From Idiomarina loihiensis (GTDB taxonomy: Bacteria; Pseudomonadota; Gammaproteobacteria; Enterobacterales; Alteromonadaceae): a stretch of DNA of 64,000 nucleotides. The DNA is taken from contig NZ_CP074112.1 of NCBI RefSeq assembly GCF_024584785.1, positions 1,736,001 through 1,800,000 on the forward strand. Direction: 5' to 3'. The translations under genes were made by a program, and so were the position numbers. The notes under the pieces are model-generated. The model was given only the letters and a program-made list of their open reading frames with translations. It did no database searches and was not told where the DNA came from. Of the stretch, positions 26,071 through 58,275 are shown piece by piece (within the stretch, counting starts at the first letter, position 1; each line of letters begins with the position of its first letter).

Positions 26071-26580
26071 ATGGATTATTTTTTAGGTGAAATACGACTG
26101 TTCGCTTCCAAACGTATACCGAGGGGATGGTTAGAGTGTAAGGGACAAGCTTTACCAATCTCCAGAAATCAGGCTTTATATGCTCTCATTGGAAAAAAGT
26201 TTGGTGGGGATATGAATAATTTCAATCTTCCCAATCTGCAATATCGTGCTATTCGAAGTACAACAAATCCGTCAAGTCAGATAGGTAACCAAGGTGGCAG
26301 TAGTGCGGTTGCACTCACCTCTAACCAAATACCTTCCCACACTCATGAATTGGGCGCAAGTCACCAAATCGCAGATACACCTGTACCACAAGAACAGTCT
26401 TTACCTGCCAACACGATAGATGAATTTATACCCTTTTATGGCACCAAACTGCCCAATACGACGGGCTCATCTCGAAATTTCACCTCAGCCGGTGCGAGTG
26501 CACCACATAACAACATGCAACCTTCACTCGCCATGGTGTACTGCATTTCAACCGATGGCATGTGGCCACCCCGTCGATAA
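26071..26580 (+). CDS. Phage-tail-collar (Mdp-like) protein, type 1, left cassette
   Basis: 169 residues. FLGEIRLFASKRIPRGWLECKGQALPIS and NQALYALIGKKFGGDMNNFNLPNL form the tail collar domain; IPSHTHELG is the central His motif and PHNNMQPSLAMVYCIS the C-terminal block. Such microcystin-dependent-protein homologues resemble tail-fibre tips and are thought to be surface or export associated. First of three adjacent paralogues; its closest local match is the gene at 57760-58275. Confidence 0.85.
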   Translation: MDYFLGEIRLFASKRIPRGWLECKGQALPISRNQALYALIGKKFGGDMNNFNLPNLQYRAIRSTTNPSSQIGNQGGSSAVALTSNQIPSHTHELGASHQIADTPVPQEQSLPANTIDEFIPFYGTKLPNTTGSSRNFTSAGASAPHNNMQPSLAMVYCISTDGMWPPRR

Positions 26581-26595
26581 ACAAGGAAAATTATT

Positions 26596-27129
26596 ATGGC
26601 TGATTGTTATATAGGAGAAGTTCGTATTTTTGTGGGTATGCGCCCTCCCAGAAATTGGTTGTTCTGTGAAGGCCAATTATTACCTATAGCTGGCAATGAA
26701 TCGCTCTACAGCTTACTTGGCACAACCTACGGCGGCGATGGGATCACTCGCTTTGCGATACCAGACCTTCGCGGTTGTGTTCCTATTGGGCAAGGACAAG
26801 ATCCGAGTAGCTCCAATAACATTCATTGCGGTACCCGCATAGGCACCGAAACAGTAACTCTTTCGTCTAGTCAATTGGCAGAACATTCACACTCACTTAA
26901 TACCAACACGCAATTTGACGGAACCACGGTCGCGCCAGATCGAATGTACATCAATAGTCTAAATATTGAGGCGTTCAGCAATACCACCGACCCCAATCGC
27001 CTAATTAACTTTAATCAAAATGCTGTGAGCACGGTGGGCGGCGGACAACCTCACGAAAACAGAATGCCATATATGGCACTTCACTACATGATTGCTACTC
27101 AGGGTGAATACCCCATGCCAACAGAATAG
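26596..27129 (+). CDS. Phage-tail-collar (Mdp-like) protein, type 2, left cassette
   Basis: 177 residues, starting MADCYIGEVRIFVG, with GDGITRFAIPDLRGCVPIG and LAEHSHSLN, ending in a PHENRMPYMALHYMIA block. It lies 15 bp after type 1. It matches the second gene of the right cassette (57211-57738), so the order is conserved. Confidence 0.85.
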   Translation: MADCYIGEVRIFVGMRPPRNWLFCEGQLLPIAGNESLYSLLGTTYGGDGITRFAIPDLRGCVPIGQGQDPSSSNNIHCGTRIGTETVTLSSSQLAEHSHSLNTNTQFDGTTVAPDRMYINSLNIEAFSNTTDPNRLINFNQNAVSTVGGGQPHENRMPYMALHYMIATQGEYPMPTE

Positions 27130-27141
27130 GAGCAGAAAATA

Positions 27142-27675
27142 ATGGATGCATTTATAGGTGAAATACGAGCTTTTCCTTATGGCTTCGCTCCTGATGGTTG
27201 GCTCGCGTGCAATGGGCAAGTGGTTCCGATACAGCAATACCAGGCGTTATTCAGTATCGTTAGCTATCAATTCGGTCCCCGTAGCAGCGTGTCGTTCTAC
27301 TTACCCAACCTGAATGAAAAAATTGTCATAGGCGCTGGACGCTTGGCTGAGACCGGCTCGTTATACCAGTTTGGACAAACAGGCGGACAAGATGAGGTAA
27401 CCCTAACTGAGGCACAGATCCCAGCACATTCTCACCGTTGGGTTGGAGCGCGCCGCCCGGGCGAATCTAATAGCCCAACCACTGGTGTACTCGGCAATAT
27501 ACTTGGTTTAGTAGAATACAAGGAATTTCCACAGCCGACCATACCCACAGCTACGTTTGGTCCACAATCTATGGGAGTGACTGGCGCAAACGAGGCTCAC
27601 GAAAACCGACAACCATTTTTGCAAATGGCGTATTACATCAATTATGACGGCGTCTATCCCATTCCAAGCGATTAA
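27142..27675 (+). CDS. Phage-tail-collar (Mdp-like) protein, type 3, left cassette
   Basis: 177 residues, starting MDAFIGEIRAFPYGFAPDGWL, with IPAHSHRWVGARR and AHENRQPFLQMAYYI. Matches the third gene of the right cassette (56672-57199), which starts MDAYLGEIRAFPYNFAP. The precursor A1 gene follows 163 bp downstream. Confidence 0.85.
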   Translation: MDAFIGEIRAFPYGFAPDGWLACNGQVVPIQQYQALFSIVSYQFGPRSSVSFYLPNLNEKIVIGAGRLAETGSLYQFGQTGGQDEVTLTEAQIPAHSHRWVGARRPGESNSPTTGVLGNILGLVEYKEFPQPTIPTATFGPQSMGVTGANEAHENRQPFLQMAYYINYDGVYPIPSD

Positions 27676-27788
27676 AATAGTCACAACATTAACGACTCGT
27701 TTTTTGCCTTAAATTTCAATTATTCTCATATATTCGCTAGCAATTTCAAAAGAGAAGTCTAATATAGTTCAAAGAGTAGACAATTGGC

Positions 27789-27805
27789 GCCCCTACCCTA
27801 GGGGC
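27789..27805 (+). promoter_or_regulatory. Small hairpin upstream of precursor A1
   Basis: GCCCCT / AGGGGC stem of 6 bp with a 5-base loop, 33 bp before the A1 start. It has no T-run, so it may be a leader or attenuator structure or chance; ACAAGG just before the ATG is the probable ribosome site. Confidence 0.3.
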
Positions 27806-27931
27806 ATAATGTAAGAGCAAAAAAGACAAGGTTAACCCATGCACCAAAACAACAATAAATTAGACTGTGAAGGTAAGCTTAACGACATAGCTAATAACGA
27901 TAGCAAAGCTTCTTGGCAAGCACCTAAAGTA

Positions 27932-28983
27932 GGCCTTGTTGAACAAATAGCGGAACTTTCTCAGTTAGCGTTGATCAGATCGCCAAACCACGCTGATACT
28001 AGACACCGCAATGAGCAAAGCAAAATACCGAGTTAAAAACTGGTCTGAATACAACAAAGCCCTTAAACAACGAGGCTCAGTGACGTTCTGGCTGGACGAG
28101 AAAGCTATCGCTCAGTGGTGGCATGATACACCAAACGGCAAACGTGGCAGAGACCTGACATACAGCGACCAAGCTATCGTCACGTTCATGATGCTTCAGG
28201 CTGTGTATAAACTCAGCTTGCGCAGTACCGAAGGTTTCTTAAACTCCTTGTTTAATTTGATGAATGTGCCGCTAAAAAGCCCTGATTACAGCAGTGTCAG
28301 CAAGCGGGCTCGGACGGTGAAGGTGAAAATACCACGCCCGTCAGGTCCTGTAGCACACGTGGTGTTTGATGCGACCGGACTAAAAGTATTCGGTGAAGGC
28401 GAATGGAAAGTGCGCAAGCATGGCCAAGAAAAGCGTCGTACTTGGCGTAAACTCCACCTAGGCGTAGACGTCGAAAGCCAACAAGTCGTGTGTGAAGAAG
28501 TCTCTCTGGTTAATGTCGGAGACAACGAAGTTCTCCCGAAGATGCTAAAGAAAATGCGTCGTCGAAAAGTAGGCAAGGTAACCGGCGACGGAGCCTACGA
28601 CACCAAAGAATGTTACCGGGAAATAGCCCGTAAAAACGCAATACCATGTATACCGCCGCGCAGCAACGCTAGATACTGGCGTGGAGACCACCCGCGAAAC
28701 GACGCAGTTAAAGCCTTGAAGCAAGGCCAGTTAGCGCAATGGAAGCATGATACCGGTTACCACCAGCGTTCATTAGCGGAAACCGCGATGTGGCGGTTCA
28801 AAAGCCTGACCGGCGAGCGGTTGCGTTACCATAGTTACAACGCGCAGGTCGGAGAGGGTTATGTACGGGTCGCCGTACTTAATAAATTAACCCGCCTTGG
28901 CATGCCCGTGAGCGAAATGGTGCGTTAACCCTAGGTGGGAAAGGGGCAATTTTACCCTCGGTACGGATTTGATCAACAAGGCC
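27932..28983 (+). mobile_element. IS5-family (IS903-group) insertion sequence
   Basis: 1052 bp bounded by inverted repeats GGCCTTGTTGAACAAAT / GGCCTTGTTGATCAAAT, and by a 9-bp target duplication CCTAAAGTA (27923-27931 and 28984-28992). Length, ends and 9-bp duplication all match the IS903 group. It interrupts precursor A1 after codon 31. Confidence 0.95.
28011..28928 (+). CDS. IS903-group transposase
   Basis: 305 residues, full length. VKNWSEYNKALKQRGSVTFWLDE is the group's start; the DDE residues are in FDATGLKVFGEGEWKVRKHG (D1), GDGAYDTKECY (D2) and RSLAETAMWRFK (E). Intact, so the element may still be mobile. Confidence 0.95.
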   Translation: MSKAKYRVKNWSEYNKALKQRGSVTFWLDEKAIAQWWHDTPNGKRGRDLTYSDQAIVTFMMLQAVYKLSLRSTEGFLNSLFNLMNVPLKSPDYSSVSKRARTVKVKIPRPSGPVAHVVFDATGLKVFGEGEWKVRKHGQEKRRTWRKLHLGVDVESQQVVCEEVSLVNVGDNEVLPKMLKKMRRRKVGKVTGDGAYDTKECYREIARKNAIPCIPPRSNARYWRGDHPRNDAVKALKQGQLAQWKHDTGYHQRSLAETAMWRFKSLTGERLRYHSYNAQVGEGYVRVAVLNKLTRLGMPVSEMVR

Positions 28984-29144
28984 CCTAAAGTAACTCAAAT
29001 CACGGCTCGAAACACCGAAGGTAAAAATTGGACTGCGGGAGGCGAAGCCTCAGAATGGCAAGGTCCTAGCTAACCCCACAAGCGATTACTGCTCAACGTG
29101 GCAACCTGTGAACAACGGGTGATACATGACACATGAAGGCGGGG

Positions 29145-30362: not shown

Positions 30363-30412
30363 TCCACTTAAAATGGGTTAAATACAATAAAAATCGCTAA
30401 AGGCACTCCAAC

Positions 30413-31411: not shown

Positions 31412-31434
31412 TCGGAGACCTATATAGGCTTAAG

Positions 31435-31893
31435 CTATAAATGCAAGAAAGTTGAAACAATCGTAAAAGAACGGTGTCCTTCTCTGCCAGAAAAAACTAA
31501 CTTTCCGGTACAAAGCCACGCATGCGCTTTCATACCCTCTGCCTCGTCTTTTCGAACACCTAAATGTACCACATACGGAATACCATATAATCGACACCAG
31601 CAAGCTCCAACTAAAGCTTGCACCAAACACTTGGATTCCCATGGCGTAAACCGAGCAGCAAGTTCAACCGCTCTGCCAATTTGCCAAGCACGCTGCAACT
31701 GCCGGTCACTAGTCAAAACACACAACTCCGTATTCCCCCAATGCTGCCCAAGCACACCACGATACCAACGAAACGGCAGTACCACCACCGCCAGCCGAAA
31801 TAGTCCAGTCATTGGCCACATCAAGATAAACCACAGCTTTTTGCGCAGCGACATCTTAATGAAGAAAGTTTGAAGCTTGTTCAACACCGCCAT
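31435..31893 (-). CDS. Lasso peptide B2-type leader protease (transglutaminase-like)
   Basis: 152 residues. An N-terminal hydrophobic region is followed by FTPWESKCLVQALVGA with the catalytic Cys, VVHLGVRKDEAEGMKAHAWL with the catalytic His, and LVFSGREGH. This is the compact B2 (Transglut_core3) protein that removes the leader with help from a B1/RRE protein. It is the only B2 in the window and lies 20 bp after the exporter gene, so it is probably co-transcribed with it. Confidence 0.9.
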   Translation of the reverse strand: MAVLNKLQTFFIKMSLRKKLWFILMWPMTGLFRLAVVVLPFRWYRGVLGQHWGNTELCVLTSDRQLQRAWQIGRAVELAARFTPWESKCLVQALVGACWCRLYGIPYVVHLGVRKDEAEGMKAHAWLCTGKLVFSGREGHRSFTIVSTFLHL

Positions 31894-33625
31894 GAATGAT
31901 CTCTTTTCATTGTTTAACCTAAATGAATTTGGTTATCGGCAAGCTCATTAATCGATGCTTGATGTGATATAACAATTACCGTTAATTTGCCACGCAAACT
32001 TTGAATCGTCTCTTTTACCAAAGCTTCATTAGCCTGATCTAAAGCATTCGTCGCCTCGTCCAAAATAAGCAATTGGGGGTTACGCAAAAGTGCTCTTGCT
32101 ATGGCTAATCGCTGGCGTTGACCACCACTTAACTGCCGCCCATGATCGCCCACCCGAGTATGCAAGCCTTTAGGTAGACTTTGTACAAAATCCCAAGCCG
32201 CCGCATCCCGCAACGCTCGCTCTATGTCAATGTCCGAGATATCATCGCGAACCCAAATTAAATTGTTGTAAATTGTGTCGTCAAATAGTAATGGCTCTTG
32301 CACCACATAGGCGACGGAATGACGCCAAGCTAACGTTTGCATCGCATTTAATACAATATTGTCCACCACGAGTTCACCGGCGGTAGCTTGCTGCAGACCC
32401 GCAATTAGATCAGCAACCGTGCTCTTGCCTGAACCCGATGGTCCTGTTAATGCCGTTATTTTATTAGCTGGAATGACACACGAAAACTGTTGTAAAACCG
32501 GTTCATTAGCACCATTGTACTGGAACGTGACATGACGTAACTCACATTGCTGAGTGATTTGCACAACATATTTAGTGGCATCAACCGCTGCTAGTTCCGG
32601 CTCCTGCGCTTGCTGCAATTGTTTTACTACAGCGCGGCCATTAGCACTTGCCGGAATAGCATGCAACGCTTGCTGCACCGTTTTTTGCACACTCGATAAC
32701 AGCGGTAGCATACGCGCAAGAATAACCACCAACACGATTAACTCAGCGATTTCACTACCGACAACCGTTAATGAAATATAGAAAAACGCGGCCACTAATA
32801 GCGCTGCGATAATCGTTAACAGCCACGTGGTCACGGCATTAATAAGGGTCAATCGAATCTGCTGCTGTTCCAGACGTTCACTGGTATGAGACAGGGCCTG
32901 CGCAAAGCGATCTTCAGCGCCAAATAGCTTAATCATTCGTAAACTATGTAAGTGCTCACTTACCGCCTTAAATAAGCGTTGATTCTCGCGCAACTGCGTA
33001 CGACCGCTTCCCAGTGTTCGTTTGTATAAGGGTAACAACAATACCGATGACAACACCGCAAACAACAGCGCCATGAAGCTCATTTGCCACGACACCACTA
33101 GCGCCACTACAAAAAAGCCAATCGTAAGCAAAAACTGAGACAAAAACTGAAAAGTAAGTTGGCTTAAACGCCCTATTTGGCTCACTTGTCCATTTAAAAG
33201 GTAACCCAAGTCAGCCAGAGAATAACGGTTCAAAACGCTCCATTGAGTACGCATAACCAAACGATACATCGTTTGTCGTAACACATGCGTGTAGCGTTGC
33301 TGTACTGATGCACTTAACGTCATATTATACGCACGAAGCGTTGCCACTAAGGTAATCAGAGCGACATAAACCGCGAGCATCGACACTAAATTTAAAGGGA
33401 TATGTAACGTCTCAAAAATCGCTGCAACAACTTGGGTGATTTCATGATTTGAAGCGGTCTCACCAGCAAAACCGAGCACGCTTAATAACGGCAAAATAAA
33501 AAGAACGTGTTAATGGCCAACTAAACTGACCCACTTTCGGCCATTAATTTTGATCCACTTTTCGTGGCTTCGGCCACATTTTTCTGTACCGTTTCCCGTT
33601 CAACTAATAAAGCGGGGGCGGCACA

Positions 33626-35142
33626 TTGAAGGAGTGGACAGTGATACACAAAATAAAATCGATGTACGACAACGGACAAGGACTCTCGATCCGTGCCATT
33701 AGCCGAGAGTTGAACATCTCGCGCAACACAGTGAAAAAATACTTAGCAATGGACGCGCAAGGTATCTGCGTGATGATGGAAGATACCTCGCGTGAAAAGT
33801 GGCTTGATGGCTATCGCGATTATCTGATCAACCAGCTTAAAGACTACCCCAAGTTGTCCGCAGTGAAGCTCATGCGCCGATTATGTCGCAAGGTGGGCAA
33901 GCTGCCCATATCCGAACGCAGCATGCGCCGTTACGTGCAAAACTTAAAAGCCGAGGTCGCTGTCGGCCAGTATCGTTATTATGAACCTATCATCGAAACT
34001 GTTCCCGGTGTGCAGTGTCAAGTTGACCCTGGTGAGCTTCGTGGTGTGCTCATCAATGGTAAGCCACACACCGTTTACTTTGTTGCGTTTGTGCTCTCAT
34101 ATAGCCGCCTCATGTACGTAGGCCTTTCGCTGCAACCGTTGAATACGCAGCGCTTTATTGAGATGCACGACGAAGCGTTTCGCTACTTCGGAGGCGTGAC
34201 CGAAGAATGTGTTTATGACCAAACCAAGTTGGTCGTACTAAGCGAAGAATATCGCGAGCTCAAACTCAATCAACGCTTTGCGCAGTACGCCACGGCGGCA
34301 TCATTCCATATTCATGCTTGCGAGGGTTTTGATCCGGAGAGCAAAGGCAAGGTTGAAGCAGCAGTTAAGTACGTCAAACAAGACTGTCTGTATGGTGAGT
34401 CGTTTCGCAGTGAAACAGAGCTTCGCGCTTACACGCTTGATTGGCTAAATGAAGTAGCCAACATTCGAGTACACGGCACCACCAAAGAGCAGCCGCAGCG
34501 CCATTATGACCGCTCAGAGCGGTCACACATGAACCACTATCATGTAGCTATGGCCAGCTTAGACAACACGCCCATGCAAACGCGCAAGGTTGATAAAACG
34601 GGGCTGATCTCTTGGGCCTCAGAACAAGTTACTCGGTGCCTATGGAATGGCAACAAAGCCGAGTTGGTGTCAGTGAAGCCAATGGTCAATTACTCTTACT
34701 CGACCCTGCCACCGGTGAGCTTATTGGCCAACATACGGTCAGTCTTGATAAAGGCCTTATTATCAAAAACCGCGACCATTACCGCGACAAAACGCAGGCG
34801 GTAGAAGCGCTTGAAGCGTACCTCAACGAGCGTCTAGGTATCGATGTTGGTCGCGCTATTGCGGCACAGCTCAAAGCAACCATGCCTCGGTTCTATAAAG
34901 ACCAACTGCGCGGTGCTCTGGATGTATTAAAGCACTACGGTGAGTTACCCACGGCACTTACAGCCCACTTGCTTGAGCGAGAAGAGTTAACGGCGAGCAA
35001 GATGCGTGAATATATCGATGCATGGTTCAGTGCCGAGCAGCGCGGACGCATGGCCGATGACGAGGAGGATAGCCCCGTGACTATCGATTTAAGCATGTAC
35101 CGCCGTATTAGCCACGTTAACGCGCAACGGAGCCTATCATGA
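33626..35142 (+). pseudogene. istA: istA with a frameshift from two 1-bp insertions
   Basis: Identical to the first copy up to the codons for ISWAS; then an extra A (GGCCTCAGAACAAG against GGCCTCGAACAAG) and an extra T (AAGTTACTC against AAGTACTC) shift the frame by two. The N-terminal product (392 residues) keeps the DDE domain but loses the C-terminal part, which is open again from about 34612. Confidence 0.9.
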
Positions 35143-35882
35143 ACCAGTTAGACAACATCGCTAAGCAGCTTCGTAGCTTACGGTTAGGTGCAGCAGCGAG
35201 CCAGTTGGCCACTCTGGTGGCCACGGCTGAAGCCAATGAAGAATCCTACTTAAGCTTCGCTGAATCGTTAGTGTCACATGAAATCACCCAACGCAACGTG
35301 AACCGAATAAAACGCCACTACAAACAGGCACAGTTCCCAAATGAAAAACGTCTCGACTTGTTCGACTACCGTCACCAAACCACGGTAACCAAGCGCCAAA
35401 TCAATGGGTTACTCGACTTTAGCTTTATTGATGAGCGCCAAAATGTGATCTTTATTGGCCCGCCGGGCGTGGGCAAGACCCACTTGGCCATTGGGATCGG
35501 TCATGAAGCAATCCAAGCTGGATATAAAGTTTTGTTCAGAAACGCATTGACGCTGGTAGAGGAACTTGAGCTTGCCGAAATGAAGGGAGAGCTCAAAAAG
35601 CGGCTCACACAGCTAAGTAAATACGATCTCATCATCATTGATGAGTTGGGTTACTTACCCATGTCGCGTCAGTCGCGTTACAACTTATTCCAGCTAATCA
35701 ATAGCTTGTACGAATATCGGTCTATCATCTTAACAACGAACAAAGATTTTACCAGTTGGGGTGAGTTCTTCCATGATGACAATGTTGCGGTACCGATCAT
35801 CGACCGCATCATCCATCACTCACACATATTTATGCTCGGAGGAGAAAGCTATCGACTGAAGGAGAAAGTTAGCAAAACCTGA
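35139..35882 (+). CDS. istB: IS21 helper ATPase IstB, copy 2
   Basis: 247 residues, same protein as at 4462-5205, with intact Walker A (GPPGVGKTHLA) and Walker B. It could still assist the intact IstA in trans. Confidence 0.95.
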   Translation: MNQLDNIAKQLRSLRLGAAASQLATLVATAEANEESYLSFAESLVSHEITQRNVNRIKRHYKQAQFPNEKRLDLFDYRHQTTVTKRQINGLLDFSFIDERQNVIFIGPPGVGKTHLAIGIGHEAIQAGYKVLFRNALTLVEELELAEMKGELKKRLTQLSKYDLIIIDELGYLPMSRQSRYNLFQLINSLYEYRSIILTTNKDFTSWGEFFHDDNVAVPIIDRIIHHSHIFMLGGESYRLKEKVSKT

Positions 35883-36223
35883 TCGCAGGTGGGTCAATTT
35901 TATTGGCCAAAAGTGGATCAATTTTAATGGCCATTGACAGAACGCCTACGCCAGCAGAAAGCGTTTGTGCCACCATGAGTAGGACAATTAACGAAATACG
36001 CTTTGGAAATGCACGAAAGAAGTCTAGAAAATAGTTTTTCGCTTCGGTAACCGTTTGTCGTGCCGATAGTACTGGTACTTGATGATATCCTGACATGCCT
36101 TGTCTTTATTTTTTTTAATAAACATAGATTCCACTATACGACACCTTAGGTTTACACTCCATCTACAATCATGTCTTTTATGTACCACCACAAGGCACTT
36201 ATGTATAATTAGGTACACAAGTT

Positions 36224-47751: not shown

Positions 47752-48003
47752 CTATTTTTGACGTTTAATTACTTCGAGGACTTCTTCCGAAACTTCAGCG
47801 ATAGTTCTACATTCGAACATAAGCAATGGCTCTACCTCAATTTCGTATTCATCTTCAATCATTCCGCACAGCAATACAGCATAGAATGACGTCATCCCTA
47901 TATCTACTAGAGGCGTCGTCGGAGTTACATCTTCACGAGAAACCTCTAAAACCCCTACTGCGCTATTTGTCAAAAAGGCTTGTATGTCTTGCACTGTTGT
48001 CAT
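47752..48003 (-). CDS. Acyl carrier protein
   Basis: 83 residues, acidic. LVDIGMTSFYAV contains the D-x-G-x-x-S phosphopantetheine site, Ser in MTS. It would carry an acyl group made by the acyl-AMP ligase of the same operon. 3 bp separate it from the P450 gene before it. Confidence 0.9.
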   Translation of the reverse strand: MTTVQDIQAFLTNSAVGVLEVSREDVTPTTPLVDIGMTSFYAVLLCGMIEDEYEIEVEPLLMFECRTIAEVSEEVLEVIKRQK

Positions 48004-48006
48004 TTT

Positions 48007-49029
48007 CTATGTTGTCCTAATAACCAATCGCGATATTTCGTAGGCAATTTTATTATTCTCGTTGTGCTTAATATCTAAAATTTTTGCCGTCGGAAATTTT
48101 GTGAAAAATTGCTGTACCATGTACTTCAAAATAAATCTGGAAAGCCCAAAACCAACGCAAAAGTGTCTTCCGTGACCGAATGGGAATGCAGGACACCCGC
48201 CCCGCTCTATCGCTTGGATATCAAACAAGTAGGTTCCGTTGTAGGCGCTATCCTTAGCGCTATCCTTGCAAACTCTATGTAAGTATGATTGTGCCGCACC
48301 CTTCGCTATTTCCTCGTCTGAAAGAGCAACCGTGCGATCACGAGACTCTTGCAGCCGCTTGGCAACAATATTAGTAAAGGTTTGGGCTAATGGAGCCGTA
48401 GCCGCGTAAAGAATAATAACTATTGATATCTTATCAACTTGACGCTCTGGCCACGCACGGTTTCTTAATAAATGCCCCAAAGCCGTGCGTTCTCTGACTA
48501 TACCCGCAGCCACTGTGTCCTCGACCGCTTCAATGGCGCGCTTAATTTTCTGGTTGATGGCCTTTAATTCGCGGAGTGAACGATAGGGCTGCACAAGTTC
48601 TTGTAAACGAATTGTATCTGCATTAAACGAAGCCGAATCTGCGGGCATTAGACCCAGCGTCGGTTTCAAGAGGCTATCAAATACTTTTAAAGAAAGCTCT
48701 TCTACTAAGTCGAACTCTGCACATTCATCTAAATTATCAACAAGCTTTTCAATTGTATCTTTAATATATTCCGACCAATCGTTTAGGATTACGTCCAGCA
48801 GATCTTTATAAACATCTCGAAGCTGCCGCAACTGCTCTCCTTCTTGAAAAAACGGCGCAAGACGGGTAAACCGAACTAACTCATCCAAACCAGACACATT
48901 ATGGCGCTGTAGTTGTTCTAGATAAGCTAAAAGACCCGGAACCTGCATGCCATCACGCCTGAGTAATGCATTTGCCTCCTCAAAATCAACAACACGCTTG
49001 AACATTGTCTGTTCTGCTAGTTTGTTCAA
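48007..49029 (-). CDS. Cytochrome P450, second of two
   Basis: 340 residues, short for a bacterial P450 (about 400). PFGHGRHFCVGFGLSRFILK is the haem-binding loop with the Cys ligand. The I-helix region (ILYAATAPLAQTF) departs from the usual A/G-G-x-E/D-T, so it may not perform ordinary hydroxylation. Its start overlaps the preceding P450 stop by 4 bp. Confidence 0.85.
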   Translation of the reverse strand: MNKLAEQTMFKRVVDFEEANALLRRDGMQVPGLLAYLEQLQRHNVSGLDELVRFTRLAPFFQEGEQLRQLRDVYKDLLDVILNDWSEYIKDTIEKLVDNLDECAEFDLVEELSLKVFDSLLKPTLGLMPADSASFNADTIRLQELVQPYRSLRELKAINQKIKRAIEAVEDTVAAGIVRERTALGHLLRNRAWPERQVDKISIVIILYAATAPLAQTFTNIVAKRLQESRDRTVALSDEEIAKGAAQSYLHRVCKDSAKDSAYNGTYLFDIQAIERGGCPAFPFGHGRHFCVGFGLSRFILKYMVQQFFTKFPTAKILDIKHNENNKIAYEISRLVIRTT

Positions 49030-50129
49030 ACTCTATGCGCCTCAAGTCGGATTAGATAGCTCAAGCTATAACCATAATGAATCTGATAATCAATTTCATA
49101 GTTATCAAGTAGAAGAAGTAATTTTAAAGTCCGCTGCCAAAACCAAGGTATGAGTTGAAGTGCAAGCCATTGGCCTGGGCAAGCATGCGAACCTGCACCA
49201 AAATTTAAGTTGGGGGTGGAAGACAGTAACTCACTTACATCAAACTCTTTAAGCGATTCTTCCCGCCGATTAATTTGATGTATATCTACCGCTTGGTAAC
49301 ACTGGTCGATTTTACTGTATCTAACAAGACGTTGAGTATTTCCAAAAACCCGAATGATATTTTGTACTACTCTATTGTCTACCTCTAAACTGATGAAAGC
49401 TTGGAGCTCGTCAGTTTTAAAATTACTCATCAATATAGCAATGAAACGACCCACAAGTTCGGCTGGTGTGGTGGAGCCTAATGCAAGCAAAAAGATACTT
49501 GCCTGTAATTCATCAAAACTTTTACCATCTTGCTCGGCTAAACGTTTGAATTTGTCAATTAGGGGCGCATTAGCACTGTTAAATCGAAGCGAATCACTAA
49601 TAATATCAAGCAATTTACCCGCACTTGCATCTGCCTGCTTAAGCTTTCGGATGGGAGCTAAGTGCTCAATCATTTGTTCAGTACAATGAATTTCACTTAA
49701 GAAGTCGTATTCATCGCGCTCAGGCAAGTGCAACCCTAAAATGTCAGAGCCAATTAACTGCGCTAGCGGCGCAACAAGACTGTCAAGAAAATCGACTGAA
49801 TCACCTTGAACTAACTGGGCTTCTACGCCAGCGAACATAGCCTCCGCCTTCTCAATGAATTGCGGCAGTAAAGACTTAATAAAAGAGCCAGCTAAGCCCG
49901 GTCTCAAAAACCTACAAAATGACTGCTCCGATTCAGAAAAACCTAAACCACGTGCAACCGTGTGCACATGCTTTAGGTTTGGAAACGAAATAGAACCATG
50001 AGTGCCCTCCTCAAGGAGGGTAATAAAATGCAAAAAATCAGGAGGTATGGAGTTCCTGCACCTAAGTACAGCTCGCCCCTCGGCTTCGCTGCAGATATTA
50101 CGATGGCTAGTCTCTTTTAAGGCATCCAT
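49026..50129 (-). CDS. Cytochrome P450, first of two
   Basis: 367 residues. NLNFGAGSHACPGQWLALQLI is the haem loop with Cys; the I-helix reads LLALGSTTPAEL, not the usual acid-Thr pair. It follows precursor A2 by 36 bp, so oxidation of this peptide, or of an acyl or ACP-bound intermediate, is plausible. Confidence 0.85.
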   Translation of the reverse strand: MDALKETSHRNICSEAEGRAVLRCRNSIPPDFLHFITLLEEGTHGSISFPNLKHVHTVARGLGFSESEQSFCRFLRPGLAGSFIKSLLPQFIEKAEAMFAGVEAQLVQGDSVDFLDSLVAPLAQLIGSDILGLHLPERDEYDFLSEIHCTEQMIEHLAPIRKLKQADASAGKLLDIISDSLRFNSANAPLIDKFKRLAEQDGKSFDELQASIFLLALGSTTPAELVGRFIAILMSNFKTDELQAFISLEVDNRVVQNIIRVFGNTQRLVRYSKIDQCYQAVDIHQINRREESLKEFDVSELLSSTPNLNFGAGSHACPGQWLALQLIPWFWQRTLKLLLLLDNYEIDYQIHYGYSLSYLIRLEAHRV

Positions 50130-50165: not shown

Positions 50166-50330
50166 TTAAGACGTTCCATAATTATAGTTAATTTCTACGG
50201 TGTCTGGCGATGGTTTCGATGATTTGGTTATATCTATCGCGAAATCAATCACTACTGGCGTTTCCCATGTTTTTTTGTCAGTAACTTCAACAATAACTTT
50301 ATTACTCGACTTGTTACTTAGATTTTTCAT
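50166..50330 (-). CDS. Lasso-type precursor peptide A2 (54 residues)
   Basis: ATG at 50330, with GAGGGAAC upstream. Leader segment KKTWETPVVIDFAIDITK has W-x-x-P and a Thr 13 residues after the Trp, as in A1 and A3. If that Thr is -2, the core is SSKPSPDTVEINYNYGTS with Asp7; if the core begins one residue later, Glu is at position 9. The C-terminus is Ser. It sits between PqqD 2 and the P450 pair and is the first small gene of the tailoring operon. No homologue known to me. Confidence 0.75.
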   Translation of the reverse strand: MKNLSNKSSNKVIVEVTDKKTWETPVVIDFAIDITKSSKPSPDTVEINYNYGTS

Positions 50331-50563: not shown

Positions 50564-50848
50564 TTAAGAACTAAGCACTTGGATGAGATTTCGTTGCTGC
50601 ATTTCATTTAAGAATAGCAATACATCTTGCTCGCATTGCTCTTTACTCACTTCAAACTCTTGCTGTAGTTTTGTACAAACAACGTCTACCGCTAAAGGTT
50701 GCTCTAACATCTCCCAAATTCTGCTGGCGACCCCGTTCAATCCAAGATAATCACTCTGGTCTTCACTCATCATAACAACTTCATTGCCCATGTGAGCGAA
50801 GACTAATTCTGTATGCCTTTGTACTTTATCTTCCAATGCTATGGTCAT
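50564..50848 (-). CDS. PqqD-like RRE (B1) protein 2
   Basis: 94 residues from ATG at 50848 (MTIALEDKVQRHTELVF), which aligns with the start of PqqD 1 and has AGGAAG upstream. Contains NEVVMMSEDQSDYLGLNGVA. Located directly after the cyclase gene and before A2, the usual B1 position. Near-duplicate of 41698-41988. Confidence 0.9.
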   Translation of the reverse strand: MTIALEDKVQRHTELVFAHMGNEVVMMSEDQSDYLGLNGVASRIWEMLEQPLAVDVVCTKLQQEFEVSKEQCEQDVLLFLNEMQQRNLIQVLSS

Positions 50849-50918
50849 ATTAACTCTTCCTATCATTAACTTATCGAACGAAAACAGAAGCGCCCAAAAC
50901 GCTTATACTAACTAAAAG

Positions 50919-52880
50919 TTACCGCTTTTTGTTAGGACTACTCTCAGTTAATTTACTACAAAAATCCAGCCGTCCCTCTTGCTGTGCTTTAGCGAGACTA
51001 TTTAAAGTATCCAGGGCTTTAATATTTGCGACAAAGGGTAATTGCAAGAGATGATCAAGTCGCTCAAATCGCAGATAATGCTGCAACACAGGCAATTTAG
51101 CATTATCTTTGACCTCAGCTATAAGCTTTTTCAATCTCATTTTCACATCAAGACGCTGATGTTTTGGTAGCACCACATCATGTTTCATTCGCATTCGAAT
51201 GCGTTCGGTCACTAAGTCTTTAATAATTTCTCGAAACATCCATCGCTCAATACCAAATTTACATTTCATATGGGTGGGTACTGAATAAGCGAACTCAATC
51301 AGCTCTTTATCAAACATGGGGTAGCGATATTCAAAATTAAAAGCCCTTGCATGGATTTCCGACCCCGATACTCGGCTCTCTATCCCCACATGAAATAGCT
51401 CTCGGTAATCTCTTTCACGAACGCCAGAAGATGTATAGTTATCAACAAAGTCAACAGCCTCTTTTAGTCTTTGCCTTGTAACAAGTTCAGGATTCAAAGG
51501 GGATTCGGTAGCGGAAAAGTGCAATAACTGGACCATAGGATTACGCCGGCGCTCAATTGTTCTGAACAGCGGTGGGTAACCATATTTCACACCAAGCTTT
51601 AGAAAGTTAAACAAGGGCTTCACTCTACGCCCTCTTTTTTTTGTGTATTGAAACTGTTGATAAAGTGATAACCAACGACCTTTACGGAATAATTCATCCT
51701 CATAAAAAGCCCCATAAGAAGTGACGCAGTGATCACCGCCCCAGCCACTAAGTAAGGTACGCACACCTCGGTCTTTCACTAAATAGTACCGAGTACATTT
51801 TTGCCCCGGATGAGGGGCTACAACACCATAATATTGTTCTATTAAATCATTATAGTTTTCAGGTTGTTGTTGTGTTGTCCACTCAGCGGATAAGTTTGGA
51901 TAAAGAGCCAAAAATTCAAATATATCCTTATAGGTATCTTGGTAAATATGTCTATTATCATCAGTAAGTTGCTGCGAATCATACGAATAGGTATAAATAG
52001 TTTGATGCGGCAACATTCGAGCTGTTAAGCCAGTTATAGCGGTTGAATCAAGACCTTCACTAAGCTCACAACCGATTGGGTACGCTGAAAGCAGGCGACG
52101 CTTCACCGCCTTCTCAAACCGCACCCTCAATTCTCGTAGATAATCCTCATCTGAATTTAGACTAGGGTACTGTTTAACTTGCAACTGCCAGTAGCACTCA
52201 CTGCGCACACTGTGCGGAGTAATAACTACATAATGTGCAGGAGGAACTCTCTGTATTGCCTTAACTGGGGAGTAATAACCTGAATTTGATTTTGGTAAAA
52301 ACAGATCAAGCACAAAGTCGTCATTAAGCTCTCTAGACACTAGCCCACTTTCAAGCAGCGCATTATGTTCATTACTAACCAATACAGCGTCGTCAGTAAC
52401 ACTATAGAAGGCCGTTTTAATTCCCAGATGATCACGAGCTATATAAATTGAATCTTTATTTTTATCCCAAACCGCAAAGACAAAATCCCCTAGCAATTTT
52501 GCTGCACAGTCTTCACCCCATTTTTGATAGGCAGCTAAAATAATTGCACCATCAGGATAATCTGATGCAAGAAACATACCGCGTTTATCTCCGATATCGA
52601 GTCGCAATTCGTCAAGCAATTCATGTCGGTTATCAATTCGAGCATTAGCTACGCACAGAAAATGGCCACATTGAGACACATGCACAGATTCATTATGAGA
52701 TTGTGGTGTATTAGAAAACCGAAGATGACTCACTGAAAGAGCGCCACCGTTAGGTTCTATGCTCAGCTCATATTGATCTACACTTTCTGGCTGCCAATAA
52801 TCACTGGCAGCCAACATCTTTTGCATGATAGCTGCGGTATCAAATGTTTTAAACGCCCATAAAAGATTAAAAACACTCAT
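50919..52880 (-). CDS. Lasso cyclase, asparagine-synthetase homologue (C protein)
   Basis: 653 residues. The N-terminal glutaminase-like domain lacks the catalytic Cys2 (the protein starts M-S-V) but keeps NARIDNRHELL and LLGDFVFAVWDKNKDSIYIARDHLGIK. The synthetase domain has PP-loop ELSEGLDSTAITGL near residues 270-283. As in McjC-type cyclases, it would adenylate the Asp/Glu side chain and close the macrolactam with residue 1. Only cyclase in the window; overlaps the ATP-grasp 2 gene by 4 bp. Confidence 0.9.
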   Translation of the reverse strand: MSVFNLLWAFKTFDTAAIMQKMLAASDYWQPESVDQYELSIEPNGGALSVSHLRFSNTPQSHNESVHVSQCGHFLCVANARIDNRHELLDELRLDIGDKRGMFLASDYPDGAIILAAYQKWGEDCAAKLLGDFVFAVWDKNKDSIYIARDHLGIKTAFYSVTDDAVLVSNEHNALLESGLVSRELNDDFVLDLFLPKSNSGYYSPVKAIQRVPPAHYVVITPHSVRSECYWQLQVKQYPSLNSDEDYLRELRVRFEKAVKRRLLSAYPIGCELSEGLDSTAITGLTARMLPHQTIYTYSYDSQQLTDDNRHIYQDTYKDIFEFLALYPNLSAEWTTQQQPENYNDLIEQYYGVVAPHPGQKCTRYYLVKDRGVRTLLSGWGGDHCVTSYGAFYEDELFRKGRWLSLYQQFQYTKKRGRRVKPLFNFLKLGVKYGYPPLFRTIERRRNPMVQLLHFSATESPLNPELVTRQRLKEAVDFVDNYTSSGVRERDYRELFHVGIESRVSGSEIHARAFNFEYRYPMFDKELIEFAYSVPTHMKCKFGIERWMFREIIKDLVTERIRMRMKHDVVLPKHQRLDVKMRLKKLIAEVKDNAKLPVLQHYLRFERLDHLLQLPFVANIKALDTLNSLAKAQQEGRLDFCSKLTESSPNKKR

Positions 52881-54100
52881 AAACTATCTCTACCAGGGTT
52901 CAACCCTTCAATCATTTGAAGGTACATGGCATCAACTAAACCGCCTCGTTTTTCACTCTGCATTAAGTTTGTTCCCCAATTTATGTTTCCTTCAAGCAGC
53001 AGAGGTCCCTTATCCGTTAAAGCCACATCCCAGCCTACAGCATTTAAATCAATTACCTGTTGATGCGCGTAGGTAACCAACACTTTAATCGCTTGCCATT
53101 CCTGCAGAACTTTACCGTCTAGTTGTGGGATGGCTCCAGAATCTACATTAATAGCATAAGGCCGAATAAAAACTTTTCTTGAAATAGGTAGCTCTACATT
53201 GGCACGCCAGACCATAAATCTTCCAGCCACTTTTAACGTCACTATTCTAACAACTACCACCTCATCATTATCACAAATATCTGCAAATTCAGGAGGCATG
53301 ACCAGTCTCGGCTGTTGCAAATAGTTCAAGTTCTTCGACAACCCCAGAAGGAAATCAATCACAGCCTGTTTACCATCAACACGAACAACACCATCTTTAC
53401 TTGTTGAGTGAAACAAGCCTTCTTTAGTGGTCGTTAAAATAAAACATCCTTTGGCTTGAGATGATACGTCTGGCTTAAAGAAATAATCATTGCCCGGTAC
53501 CAGATTAGCTAAGCTATCCACAGTCATCAATTGTGTAGGTACTGATGGCACATCTATAGAACTTGCAAAGAATAACTTACTACTCATTATCTTAGCTGTT
53601 CTATTACTATAGGCTGCTTGAAAGGTCTGATGCCAGTGTGGCAATACTTGGTTAGGAACATAGTACCACCAATAACATAGCGGGACGTTATATAGCGCCA
53701 GTGAATGGAAGCTCTGGGGAGTTATTCCTCTCGAGTATGCTCTTATAGCTTTCCATAAATAGCGAGGTGATATGGGAACGATCGTTTCTGTTTGCTTACT
53801 GCCGTGTTTAGTCTTTCTGTAAAGATGCCGAACATACAACCAAGGGCCGAAAATGATATACCAAGAGATGATGCTGTAGACCACGGCCAAACCATACAAC
53901 CAGCGTGGAATAGGTTGCCAAGCGTTGAAAAAAACTTTTTTATGGAGCTGATATCCCTGACACTTCTTATCAGCGAGGCCAAGAGGCACAATGAATCGCC
54001 AACTAATAAGAGTATGGGGCGACTTTCTCAATAATATCCGTTTATAAAAGTACTTTAAGAGTTTACCCAATGTACTAGATCCACATAGAATGGTAGTCAA
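52877..54100 (-). CDS. Sugar-transfer-associated ATP-grasp protein 2
   Basis: 407 residues from TTG at 54100; alignment with paralogue 1 suggests the true start may be about ten codons later (TTG in GSSTLGKLL). Shares SWRFIVPLGLADKK, a membrane-like segment, YFFKPDVSSQAKGCFIL and GPLLLEGNINWGTN with 29145-30362. Coupled to the cyclase gene, so it is likely to act on the same peptide or its carrier. Confidence 0.8.
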   Translation of the reverse strand: MTTILCGSSTLGKLLKYFYKRILLRKSPHTLISWRFIVPLGLADKKCQGYQLHKKVFFNAWQPIPRWLYGLAVVYSIISWYIIFGPWLYVRHLYRKTKHGSKQTETIVPISPRYLWKAIRAYSRGITPQSFHSLALYNVPLCYWWYYVPNQVLPHWHQTFQAAYSNRTAKIMSSKLFFASSIDVPSVPTQLMTVDSLANLVPGNDYFFKPDVSSQAKGCFILTTTKEGLFHSTSKDGVVRVDGKQAVIDFLLGLSKNLNYLQQPRLVMPPEFADICDNDEVVVVRIVTLKVAGRFMVWRANVELPISRKVFIRPYAINVDSGAIPQLDGKVLQEWQAIKVLVTYAHQQVIDLNAVGWDVALTDKGPLLLEGNINWGTNLMQSEKRGGLVDAMYLQMIEGLNPGRDSL

Positions 54101-54227
54101 AGCCCACTAATTGATGGTCACTTTATAATTATAGGCAGCTTCGATAAAGTCTACACCAACAAGCTCCTTGAACTTCCCGAGTATACATCGTGAAGTAGCA
54201 AACCATCCAATTATTGTGTCGCTTTGT

Positions 54228-56402: not shown

Positions 56403-56437
56403 TCAAGTTCTCACACAGCATCAAAGTAAATCGCTAA

Positions 56438-56608
56438 TTAACTACCAACACTAGTATAGGTATCCGACTCAAATGGGTTGTTATCTTTGATAGCACTCTC
56501 GGTGGTGGCAGAAGATAGAATACTCAACGTCGGCTGTTGCCAAGCCTTACGCAACTCTTGCTTACTACCCTGCTCACTAACCACTACTTCAGTTTGTTTA
56601 TTGGCCAT
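56438..56608 (-). CDS. Lasso-type precursor peptide A3 (56 residues)
   Basis: ATG at 56608 with GGAGACAT upstream; stop at 56438. Leader segment RKAWQQPTLSILSSATTE has W-x-x-P-x-L and a Thr 13 residues after the Trp. The tail is SAIKDNNPFESDTYTSVGS; starting at Ala2 of this tail puts Glu at position 9, while starting at Ser puts it at 10. C-terminal Ser. It follows the right Mdp triplet by 63 bp, the same position A1 has in the left cassette. Confidence 0.75.
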   Translation of the reverse strand: MANKQTEVVVSEQGSKQELRKAWQQPTLSILSSATTESAIKDNNPFESDTYTSVGS

Positions 56609-56671
56609 GATATGTCTCCATCAAATTAAATTAAAAATCAATCAAGTAAATACGAGTACATGATTGTCTGA

Positions 56672-57199
56672 TTACGGCCGTATCGGATACTCGCCGCCAT
56701 CAACACAAATATAAAACCCCATTGCCAATACCGGCTGTCTGTTCTCATGCGCTTGCCCAGCACCGGTAATACCGATGGTCGCGGGATGCAGCGGAACAAG
56801 ATTAGTGCCAGCGGCGGTAAAGGTTTTAAACTCTATAGTATCTTGAATGTTCGCTAAATAGCCAGATGTCGGAATAGCCGAATCTGCAGCTTTGCGAACA
56901 GCCCGCCATTCATGAGTATGTGGTGGAAGTTGTGGTGGCAGTAGGTTAACGGAGTTAGCTCCCAAAGACTGACCAAAAGAATAACCAGATAACCCTGCCC
57001 CCTGTCCCCACTGAGCTATCACTTTATGGCGGAGGTCAGGGAGATTATAAGTGGTAGAGCTTCCACCGAATTTAGTACCAATAATAGAATAAAGTGCCGG
57101 ATATTGCGACACTTGTAAAGTTTGTCCCATGCATTCCAACCAATACCTTGGTGCAAAGTTATATGGAAAGGCTCTAATTTCTCCAAGATAAGCATCCAT
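56672..57199 (-). CDS. Phage-tail-collar (Mdp-like) protein, type 3, right cassette
   Basis: 175 residues starting MDAYLGEIRAFPYNFAPRYWLECMGQ-like, with LPPHTHEWRAVRK and AHENRQPVLAMGFYICVDG. Counterpart of 27142-27675. Last of the triplet, directly before precursor A3. Confidence 0.85.
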   Translation of the reverse strand: MDAYLGEIRAFPYNFAPRYWLECMGQTLQVSQYPALYSIIGTKFGGSSTTYNLPDLRHKVIAQWGQGAGLSGYSFGQSLGANSVNLLPPQLPPHTHEWRAVRKAADSAIPTSGYLANIQDTIEFKTFTAAGTNLVPLHPATIGITGAGQAHENRQPVLAMGFYICVDGGEYPIRP

Positions 57200-57210
57200 A
57201 ATAGTTGCTC

Positions 57211-57738
57211 CTAGTATTGCGATGGATAAATGCCGGTGTGGGCAATAATGTAATTTAACGCCATCATGGGCATTCTATTTTCATGTGCCATTGCATGGCC
57301 CTCAGGCTTAATACATTCAGCATTCAACACATTAATATCCGCCGGATTAGTTGATGTACTGTAACTTTTATTATCGCCTAAATTGAGCGCATTATTGGCC
57401 GGAATATTGGTATCACCGGTTGCGATACTAACCATAACACTATGTTGGTGTGAGGGCATTTCTGCAGCGGTTAAGGTCTCCGTCTCTGTGCCTAACGTTT
57501 GGCCTCGAGTCACATTACTACCGGTTGCAGGATTAGTACCAATTCCAATAGGAATTCTGCTACGCATATCAGGCAACTTAAAATGAGTTTGGCCATCACC
57601 GCCATAGGTTGTTCCCAGTAATGAGAATAGCGCTTCGTTTTCTACAATTTGAAGCGACTGCCCAGCACAGATATACCAGCCTTGCGGAGCGTAATCTCCC
57701 GCAAAAATTCTAATTTCACCAAGATAGAAATCACTCAT
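57211..57738 (-). CDS. Phage-tail-collar (Mdp-like) protein, type 2, right cassette
   Basis: 175 residues: MSDFYLGEIRIFAGDYAPQGW, TTYGGDGQTHFKLPDMRSRIPIG, MPSHQHSV, AHENRMPMMALNYIIAHTG. Counterpart of 26596-27129. Confidence 0.85.
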   Translation of the reverse strand: MSDFYLGEIRIFAGDYAPQGWYICAGQSLQIVENEALFSLLGTTYGGDGQTHFKLPDMRSRIPIGIGTNPATGSNVTRGQTLGTETETLTAAEMPSHQHSVMVSIATGDTNIPANNALNLGDNKSYSTSTNPADINVLNAECIKPEGHAMAHENRMPMMALNYIIAHTGIYPSQY

Positions 57739-57759
57739 ATCAATGTCCTCTATGGTCTT

Positions 57760-58275
57760 CTACGGCCGGCTAGGAAAGATGCCAGTTGTCGCAATACAAT
57801 AGACCAAGCCAATACTGGGCTGCATGTTGTTATGGGCTTGGCTCCCACCGACGCTACTCAAGCTATTACTGGTAAGCATTTGATCAGGGACCACTGAACC
57901 ATAAATATCAGCTGCATCGCCAGATACTTCTCCCAACATGGTATTAGGTCTTGGTTGAGGAACGTCGGCAGCAAGGCTTGTTGCCATTACTTGGTGACGA
58001 TGCGCAGGCATTGCTTCAACAGTTAAGGCGACTCGCTCACTCCCTACTTTAGTCCCCACAGTCAGCCCAATGTTGTAATCTTGCCCCACCACAGCCCGGT
58101 ATCGCAAATCAGGAAGCTGAAACGTAGTTCCCGCATTACCTCCGAATCTGTTAGCAAGTAATGCATACAATGCTTGATATTGATTTATCGGTAGCGTTTG
58201 TCCGTCGCAAATCATCCAACCATTAGGGATAAATCCATAAGTAAATAATCTTATTTCACCAAGAAAATTATCCAT
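57760..58275 (-). CDS. Phage-tail-collar (Mdp-like) protein, type 1, right cassette
   Basis: 171 residues: MDNFLGEIRLFTYGFIPNGWM, RFGGNAGTTFQLPDLRYRAVV, MPAHRHQVM, AHNNMQPSIGLVYCIA. Counterpart of 26071-26580. First gene of the right triplet; GAGGAGTT lies upstream of the start. Confidence 0.85.
   Translation of the reverse strand: MDNFLGEIRLFTYGFIPNGWMICDGQTLPINQYQALYALLANRFGGNAGTTFQLPDLRYRAVVGQDYNIGLTVGTKVGSERVALTVEAMPAHRHQVMATSLAADVPQPRPNTMLGEVSGDAADIYGSVVPDQMLTSNSLSSVGGSQAHNNMQPSIGLVYCIATTGIFPSRP

Follow-up and report, generated by a model that had tools for sequence, protein, structure and literature searches.

Several described systems come close to the lasso peptide locus considered here. 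Phosphorylated lasso systems of the paeninodin type and of proteobacteria (SyanK, BsfK) have a YxxPxL leader motif, and the paeninodin and SyanK cores end in a C-terminal Ser (PMC8498205, PMC10368454, PMC5067487); in Firmicutes lasso clusters a putative sulfotransferase gene adjoins the lasso genes (PMC8498205). Lasso peptides can also be acylated (PMC13352647). As far as the available parts of these reports go, a lasso core, a kinase, a nucleotidyltransferase and a nearby sulfotransferase are all already in print. In the DltABCD relay for D-alanylation, DltB takes the acyl group from a carrier protein (PMC10213974). The locus at issue lies in a 64,000-nucleotide stretch of Idiomarina loihiensis (the window; positions 1736001-1800000 of one 2.90-Mb contig, NZ_CP074112.1), where lasso genes and the genes of a putative DltABCD-like acyl relay are interleaved. 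Our preferred reading, which we regard as reasonably probable, is that two biosynthetic modules share this locus, the acyl relay having merged into the operon of the lasso system.

The lasso genes are real. The leader peptidase B2 (Transglut_core3; 31435..31893, minus strand) scores 88.9 bits to NF033537 (lasso_biosyn_B2), whose cut-off is 33, and has its Cys...His motif in place. Two copies of B1, the PqqD-like RRE (recognition element) protein, lie at 41698..41988 and 50564..50866 (both minus strand); they share 69 of 94 residues, exceed the cut-off of PF05402 and find their best lasso-specific family in NF033536. The cyclase C (50919..52880, minus strand), whose best NCBIfam family is the lasso cyclase family NF033535, carries SEGLDS and starts Met-Ser, not Met-Cys, and Met1-Ser2 is nearly invariant across a 15-sequence alignment. 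An initial annotation, made from the letters alone, had listed two B1 genes, one B2 and one Cys2-less cyclase, and all of these stand. It had also counted one ABC exporter gene, which proved to be split around an IS21-type insertion sequence (IS). A C-terminal part (31914..33494, minus strand; identified by profiles, 78% identical to the exporter of a related Idiomarina locus, L006) and an N-terminal part (35869..36096, minus strand; about 53 residues and then IS sequence, recognized by sequence comparison) line up with successive segments of the L006 exporter, itself an uninterrupted frame of 584 aa. An intact dedicated exporter is thus not found here, the gene being cut by the IS element.

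Relatives were drawn from samples of 26 genus, 295 family, 394 order and 369 class genomes, the window's own genome being counted in each; two order samples of 394 with the same lasso-positive genomes were taken as one draw. The cyclase family is rare. It was found at E <= 1e-30 in 2 of the 26 genus genomes, the second (G015) with just a 27% match, at 1e-40 in 2 of the 295 family genomes, and by profile at 1e-100 in 4 of the 394 order genomes and 1 of the 369 class genomes, the window's own. Among plasmid records, the single match at E <= 1e-40 was an annotated asnB of an archaeon. The window cyclase is 60% identical to that of L006, which lies on a 21.9-kb piece of a 55.9-kb contig from an Idiomarina metagenome-assembled genome, and 65% identical to that of Pseudidiomarina sp. 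PP-1MA. Five lasso loci were compared with the window: L006, G032 (L018-L020, L026), G584 (L024, L036), G617 (L023, L038 and L039, spread over two contigs) and G557 (L025, L037), the most distant of the five, with a 28% identical cyclase. Twelve loci have a related cyclase, and gene content was scanned in five of them (L006, L007, L010, L012, L015).

The initial annotation's three precursor genes were borne out by pattern scans and direct reading, though one of them is interrupted. Precursor A1 (span 27839..29073, plus strand) is split by an IS5/IS903-type element at 27932-28983 into a leader part (27839-27931) and a core part (28984-29073). Its core residues, GKNWTAGGE-ASEWQGPS, were read directly from the two flanks and not joined by script, and Thr stands at -2. 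A2 (50166..50330) and A3 (56438..56608), both on the minus strand, are intact; A2 was found by pattern scans and A3 by the leader-pattern scan, which rules out an earlier count of only two precursors. The core pattern [GSA]K-x6-E with a terminal Ser fits 2 of 241 open reading frames (ORFs) between 24 and 60 kb, against a mean of 0.225 for the shuffled 64-kb window, and a leader-plus-core pattern also fits 2 ORFs there, with 0.125 expected from shuffles. Combined, the two patterns recover all three window precursors, and neither fits any of 226 ORFs in the remaining window or any of 982 ORFs at five control loci (L027-L030, L034). At the relatives, the core pattern ending in Ser gives four matches in L006 and one each in G032, G584 and G617; it gives none in L023 and none in G557, whose precursor came from the leader pattern instead. 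All told, there are 11 precursors at six loci (three in the window, four in L006, one at each of the others), and every one begins its core with G, S or A and, in the preferred reading, has an E at position 8 or 9. Lys stands at core position 2 in nine of the 11, the exceptions being A3 (in its E9 reading) and G557, and nine of ten whole precursors have the W..P motif in the leader. We read that motif as WxxPx[V/L]...T; an aromatic-x-x-P-x-[V/L] leader occurs together with a predicted ring from G/S/A to D/E at 7-9.

Kinase, sulfotransferase, NTP_transf_5 and ATP-grasp genes accompany the lasso genes, much as the initial annotation had it. Both HprK-like kinases (36224..37210, plus strand, 49% identical to its L006 homolog; 40747..41688, minus strand) have the catalytic motif H...G..G.GKS...DD, with Pfam and NCBIfam kinase scores below cut-off. 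This motif and a phosphorylatable Ser make the locus, as judged from sequence, a candidate phosphorylated-lasso system. The NTP_transf_5 protein (PF14907; 30413..31411, plus strand) is a putative nucleotidyl- or glycosyltransferase, likened to PsmN by family name only. The sulfotransferase (39870..40781, minus strand), of the type using 3'-phosphoadenosine-5'-phosphosulfate (PAPS), was identified by Pfam and motif. Two ATP-grasp proteins (PF14397; 29145..30362 and 52877..54100, both minus strand) are 47% identical to each other and belong to a small family, with 13 members at E <= 1e-10, apparently including one from the window itself; K209, E370 and N372 are invariant in 18 sequences, and a PDB search with the ATP-grasp profile gave no lead. 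Graspetide-like side-chain crosslinking by these enzymes was considered and is unsupported, the A2 tail having no acid.

Kinase (the second copy), sulfotransferase and ATP-grasp are found with C, B1, B2 and ABC at all five relatives (the ATP-grasp weakly, at 24-28%, in G557), and NTP_transf_5 at four of five, with none in L006. Since the relatives show these enzymes beside the cyclase, they belong to the lasso system, and the initial annotation's picture of a lasso system with many accessory enzymes holds. More distant loci (L007, L010, L012, L015; cyclase 24-30% identical) all have C, B1, kinase and NTP_transf_5, and three have B2. No ATP-grasp, sulfotransferase or collar match was found at these four at 1e-4, so these three mark the closer group. 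There is some further variety in tailoring genes. The G584 lasso cluster includes a 2-oxoglutarate-Fe(II) oxygenase and a second sulfotransferase-like gene (Pfam; L024 6640-8623), and ORFs in G617 (L038 53-1649) look similar by eye to this pair. Genes read as cysD, cysN and cysC, with a weak DHHA1-type gene, adjoin the cluster in the window (58869-62948) and in L006 (3924-8855). Beside both Idiomarina loci, the cys genes could possibly supply PAPS to the sulfotransferase.

The gene order in L006 accounts for much of the layout. Counted from the cysC-like side, L006 has three precursors, C, B1, HprK2, sulfotransferase, HprK1 (reversed), a 381-aa protein, ABC, B2, ATP-grasp, a precursor and tail-collar genes, with 10.3 kb from C to the last precursor. 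The window keeps this gene order beside the same cysC- and DHHA1-like genes, and adds to it at several points. A collar triplet, A3, an EAL-domain gene and ATP-grasp 2 precede C; C and HprK2 are separated by a second B1, A2 and the acyl block; MBOAT1/SGNH1 stand after the sulfotransferase and ahead of HprK1; NTP_transf_5 parts B2 from ATP-grasp 1; and there are two IS elements. We infer that these differences are gains in the window and not losses in L006, a direction helped by the failure to find the acyl block at the other relatives. The initial annotation had described the core genes as scattered, and in the window they are spread out, but not by design: because the genes common to both loci occupy only some 10 kb of L006, in unchanged order, dispersal as the original arrangement is ruled out, and what looks dispersed is a compact cluster pulled apart by insertions. 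The L006 381-aa gene (15421-16566), which has no Pfam match and lies in a cluster lacking NTP_transf_5, has no counterpart at the matching place in the window. Between A3 and ATP-grasp 2, window positions 54228-56402 encode a protein with SBP_bac_3, weak GGDEF and EAL domains, with no match at 1e-4 in the relatives' stretches.

The genes of the acyl block all lie on the minus strand and were correctly listed by the initial annotation: an AMP ligase, an acyl carrier protein (ACP), a carbamoyltransferase, two P450-like genes and two MBOATs, each paired with an SGNH-like gene. The ligase (42049..43608) is read as a fatty acyl-AMP ligase (FAAL). NCBIfam places it nearest to the long-chain fatty-acid-CoA and fatty acyl-AMP ligases, with scores under the cut-offs, and its PDB matches are 7r7e-g (polyketide synthase), 3kxw (saframycin synthetase) and then the fatty acyl-adenylate ligase 3pbk (5e-33), with DltA (3fcc, 9e-14) below the fatty-acyl-type ligases. 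The ACP (47752..48003) was identified by Pfam, its DxGxxS motif and a homolog on a Rhodobacteraceae SC52 plasmid, CP049029. MBOAT1 (38406..39821; profiles, PDB; 50% to an SC52 MBOAT) and MBOAT2 (44550..46046; no Pfam match, recognized by NCBIfam, PDB and an SC52 homolog) match DltB chains alone in the PDB at E <= 0.01, and score 127 and 121 bits to NCBIfam dltB, below its cut-off of 375. The locus thus has the AMP ligase, carrier and DltB-like MBOAT expected of a DltABCD-like system. SGNH1 (37241..38431), the partner of MBOAT1, is 27% identical over 396 columns to an SC52 SGNH/GDSL protein, has a DxxH motif and gave no meaningful PDB match; the SGNH2-like partner of MBOAT2 (43589..44563) has the DxxH motif and a weak likeness (E 0.061) to the SC52 gene in the matching place. 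The NodU-like O-carbamoyltransferase (46040..47749) is 46% and 44% identical to copies on Rhodobacterales plasmids; at 1e-90 it was matched in 3 of 196 family genomes, one of them its own, and in the stretches fetched from the other two, G168 (20 kb) and G096 (a 5.7-kb contig), no cassette gene was found among its neighbours.

The two P450-like genes overlap by 4 bases. P450a (48007..49029; FGxGxHxCxG) falls just below the Pfam cut-off, and P450b (49026..50129) has no Pfam match; the Cys motif is present in both, and they correspond to the two halves of a single fused protein in the Rhodobacterales cassettes. Their weak PDB matches to P450s include 3ejb, the P450 of biotin synthesis, which acts on acyl-ACP. 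A protein search needing shared exact words (E <= 1e-3) returned for P450b only its own cluster, of 3 member sequences, and among 246 family genomes its one match was the window's own.

The same cassette stands alone elsewhere. On CP049029 (L028 9868-21161) all cassette homologs form one run, in the order AMP ligase, 725-aa fused P450 pair, ACP, carbamoyltransferase, MBOAT2, SGNH2-like, MBOAT1, SGNH1; eight of the nine window genes have a CP049029 counterpart with an E-value of 1e-6 or lower, and SGNH2 has one at 0.061 (set of 15 proteins). CP104105 (Phaeobacter sp. G2; L027 9924-15689) has the first four of these genes: AMP ligase, fused P450s, ACP and carbamoyltransferase. The plasmid cassettes therefore resemble the window in having the AMP ligase, P450 pair, ACP and carbamoyltransferase, together with two MBOAT/SGNH pairs in CP049029; they differ in that the P450s are fused, the AMP ligase lies at the opposite end of the run and there is no lasso cyclase on the record. 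The cyclase profile found no match on the whole CP049029 and CP104105 records, an empty result that alone shows little, and the same profile does recover the cyclase in G000, G557, G584 and G617. A search for the other lasso genes in the 29.6-kb stretches around the plasmid cassettes turned up nothing but an ABC match, to modC. In the fetched stretches of the five lasso relatives, no acyl cassette gene was matched at E <= 1e-4. Since its genes sit together on CP049029 without a cyclase and are missing from those fetched stretches, the acyl block is, on sequence evidence, a separate cassette.

That said, the cassette is closely woven into the lasso operon. The run that begins with ATP-grasp 2 and ends with SGNH1 comprises sixteen codirectional genes, spaced by -35 to 60 bp apart from a single 233-bp gap ahead of A2, an arrangement that favours co-expression; a promoter scan stayed at shuffle level, a terminator scan came out about 1 standard deviation above shuffles, and an Rfam scan, a tRNA scan and PADLOC (five proteins) gave no lead. 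Co-expression of the two modules is the best reading. Functional coupling is plausible, because the cassette is split and interleaved codirectionally, with small gaps, in the lasso operon.

Gene content, homology, motifs, the IS breaks, the conserved gene order and the free-standing cassette are observations; from them we infer the reactions below and their order, which way the insertions went, and what the acceptor is. B1 would bind the leader (WxxPx[V/L]...T), B2 would cut it off, and C would close the ring from the N-terminal residue to E9. The HprK-like kinases would phosphorylate the precursor, with the C-terminal Ser the likeliest site, and NTP_transf_5 might add to the phosphate. The sulfotransferase would add sulfate, and the ATP-grasp ligase an acyl group or an amino acid. 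In the second module, the AMP ligase would charge the ACP, the P450 pair would oxidise the acyl-ACP, and the carbamoyltransferase would carbamoylate the new hydroxyl; the two MBOAT/SGNH pairs would then move the group over the inner membrane, where an acceptor would receive it. The acyl module would have entered the lasso operon of an L006-like ancestor in two pieces. A likely candidate acceptor of the acyl group is the exported lasso peptide, and the notion that both modules act on one molecule is drawn from a single genome. In its fullest form, the exported lasso peptide would be lipidated once it reaches the periplasm, by an oxidised and carbamoylated fatty acyl group delivered from the ACP by two DltB-like MBOAT/SGNH pairs, making it the first lasso lipopeptide built by a carrier-protein acyl relay and a merger of two unrelated pathways; we consider this fullest form rather unlikely.

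Several alternatives bear on what the relay does. Two independent pathways might simply share one island, and perhaps one operon, with the acyl-carbamoyl relay acting on a glycan or lipid of the cell surface while the kinases, NTP_transf_5, sulfotransferase and ATP-grasp alone decorate the lasso peptide. To this we give an even chance: known bacterial MBOAT/SGNH pairs act on surface polymers, and an acyl module that occurs on CP049029 without a lasso cyclase, and was not found at five lasso relatives, is what such independence would look like, but side-by-side islands would not give the split, codirectional, tight-gap interleaving seen in the window. That interleaved run includes A2, which speaks for the opposite extreme and the claim of the initial annotation, a single, heavily tailored lasso peptide that carries phosphate, sulfate, carbamoyl and acyl groups all at once. 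The initial annotation had itself named tailoring genes occurring without lasso core genes as evidence to the contrary, and for the acyl block CP049029 provides just that; with the cassette alone elsewhere and not found at five relatives, the claim is not supported as stated, and we rate such an all-in-one product as rather improbable.

The locus might also be a decaying remnant, with exporter and A1 broken, no lasso product, and the gene mixture a scrap heap of insertions. An IS5-type element in A1, an IS21-type element in the exporter and duplicates of B1, ATP-grasp and the collar triplets are in keeping with decay. Against it, every one of the thirteen enzymes and carriers checked has an open frame and its motif intact, and a cyclase at 98% identity and an ATP-grasp 2 at 94% identity each occur on a contig of 42,541 bases, so that the lineage keeps them. 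Decay of the whole is in our view unlikely, although lasso output is probably reduced or lost in this strain, because IS elements broke the exporter and precursor A1.

A number of observations weigh against the preferred reading of a lasso system joined by an acyl relay. No lasso relative with the acyl cassette was found, so the coupling is seen once, in one genome, and the broken exporter speaks against an active secreted product in this strain. The core assignments are imperfect: the cyclase scores 280 bits where NF033535 has a curated cut-off of 525, and the B1 proteins 66 and 73 bits where that of NF033536 is 80. The P450s are weak matches with no obvious ExxR by eye, and neither SGNH gene has a family-profile match in Pfam. 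Among the precursors, L006 9336-9479 is counted despite being the one whole precursor without the W..P motif. All 11 precursors at the six loci, including all three window cores, have a terminal Ser, but the search patterns demanded it, so that "all end in Ser" holds partly by construction; a looser scan without this demand gave five precursors along with three ORFs that lack a final Ser (an IS-borne ORF present twice, and one in L024), which were dropped as chance or IS-borne. Where the leader ends and the core begins is also uncertain in A2 and A3. If Thr stands at -2, the E falls at position 10 (A2 also has a D at 7), and if the ring has nine residues and closes at E9, both carry Thr at -3, not at -2. 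Moreover, the residue that the known lasso kinase BsfK phosphorylates is Ser3 and not a Ser at the C-terminus, according to the available parts of the kinase reports (among PMC8498205, PMC10368454, PMC5067487).

The element in the exporter (33539..35932, plus strand), presumably of the IS21 family, has ORFs at 33626-34804 and 35139-35882 and inverted repeats at 33539-33562 and 35909-35932. A 52-aa ORF at 2846-3004 is identical to one at 33521-33679, and ORFs at 2951-4465 and 4462-5205 suggest a possible second IS21-type copy at window 2846-5205. The element in A1 (27932..28983, plus strand; transposase 28011-28928), presumably of the IS5/IS903 family by its terminal repeats and transposase, is flanked on each side by a 9-bp target duplication, CCTAAAGTA.

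Tail-collar triplets (PF07484) border the locus as a neighbour module, and further three-gene triplets, mostly accompanied by a GNAT gene, stand at L024, L025, L038 and L040-L057. Triplet A (26071..27675, plus strand) and triplet B (minus strand), which together with a GNAT gene at 58377-58853 occupies 56672..58853, match each other best position by position (74/169, 75/175 and 80/174 identical), so the triplet was probably duplicated as a unit, to judge by these alignments; that its three distinct chains form a heterotrimer is a guess. In the 26 genus genomes collar genes occur only in the window's genome, which has six, all here. Triplets are found at five of six lasso loci, the window included, standing by the lasso genes in L006, G584, G617 and G557, and G032 has one collar gene 1.5 Mb from its lasso locus. 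All 4 lasso-positive genomes of the 394 have a triplet, with a chance of 7e-6 if genomes were independent, which they are not. At least 22 of the 394 order genomes have the triplet, and by hand count at least 18 of these lack the cyclase at 1e-100. In the stretches fetched around 18 cyclase-free triplets, no C, B1, B2, ABC, kinase, ATP-grasp or NTP_transf_5 match was found at 1e-5; a sulfotransferase-like match occurs in 2 and a GNAT gene beside 16 of the 18. The triplet with its GNAT is a common stand-alone module that tends to sit by this lasso family, and the triplets are at most a candidate lasso part, given the cyclase-free genomes that have them. Self-immunity by lysine acetylation, an idea taken from the available accounts of triculamin and lariocidin, is a less likely role for the GNAT because it accompanies cyclase-free triplets; more likely, it belongs to the collar module. 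Just outside triplet A, at 25240-25971, is another sulfotransferase (PF13469).

In the open-access literature we found nothing on lasso peptides with tail-collar genes, nothing on MBOAT, SGNH and carbamoyltransferase together and no paper on the Rhodobacterales plasmid cassette. Titles retrieved for FAAL with carbamoyltransferase, MBOAT, P450 and ACP, or for lasso peptides with carbamoyltransferase, acyltransferase or P450, do not point to this arrangement, and lasso peptide with Idiomarina retrieved only halophile papers, by title. ATP-grasp enzymes are not found with lasso genes in the passages on lasso accessory genes that are available, where the one mention is for microviridins; the term has zero counts in PMC9266682 and PMC13352647, and other literature holds both "lasso peptide" and "ATP-grasp". 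What emerges is a lasso subgroup with a core of mostly [GSA]K-x6-E, a C-terminal Ser, and a kinase, sulfotransferase and ATP-grasp ligase, the last a constant partner at 6 of 6 loci seen. The comparison also exposes a stand-alone cassette predicted to serve acyl oxidation, carbamoylation and export that can recombine into a peptide operon, and if it acts on the lasso peptide, scaffolds of ribosomally synthesized and post-translationally modified peptides would be lipidated by an ACP relay outside the cytoplasm. With a compact L006 cluster and a lasso-free plasmid cassette at hand, the question of one product becomes directly testable.

How the locus compares with known systems differs between its two modules. 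For the lasso module, the paeninodin-type and the proteobacterial SyanK and BsfK systems, as far as their available descriptions go, share split B1/B2 proteins, an exporter and an HprK-like kinase with H...GKS...DD; unlike them, the window has W for Y in the leader, two kinases, and a sulfotransferase, ATP-grasp and NTP_transf_5 in one cluster, and the related L006 has up to four precursors. The acylated lasso peptide of PMC13352647 comes, in the text available, with no mention of an ACP/MBOAT/SGNH route. Pseudomycoidin, with PsmK and PsmN, likewise combines a kinase and a nucleotidyltransferase, a likeness drawn by family name from partial descriptions, and the window departs from it in gene order, host phylum and additional enzymes. 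The sulfotransferase-bearing Firmicutes clusters, in the parts described, belong to another phylum and have other gene neighbours. For the acyl module the DltABCD relay is a close parallel, with an AMP ligase, a carrier protein, a DltB-like MBOAT and a putative SGNH-type partner, DltD being SGNH-type. The cassette differs from DltABCD in that its ligase is nearer to the fatty-acyl type than to DltA, its SGNH genes have no profile match, there are two MBOAT/SGNH pairs, and a P450 pair and a carbamoyltransferase have been added.

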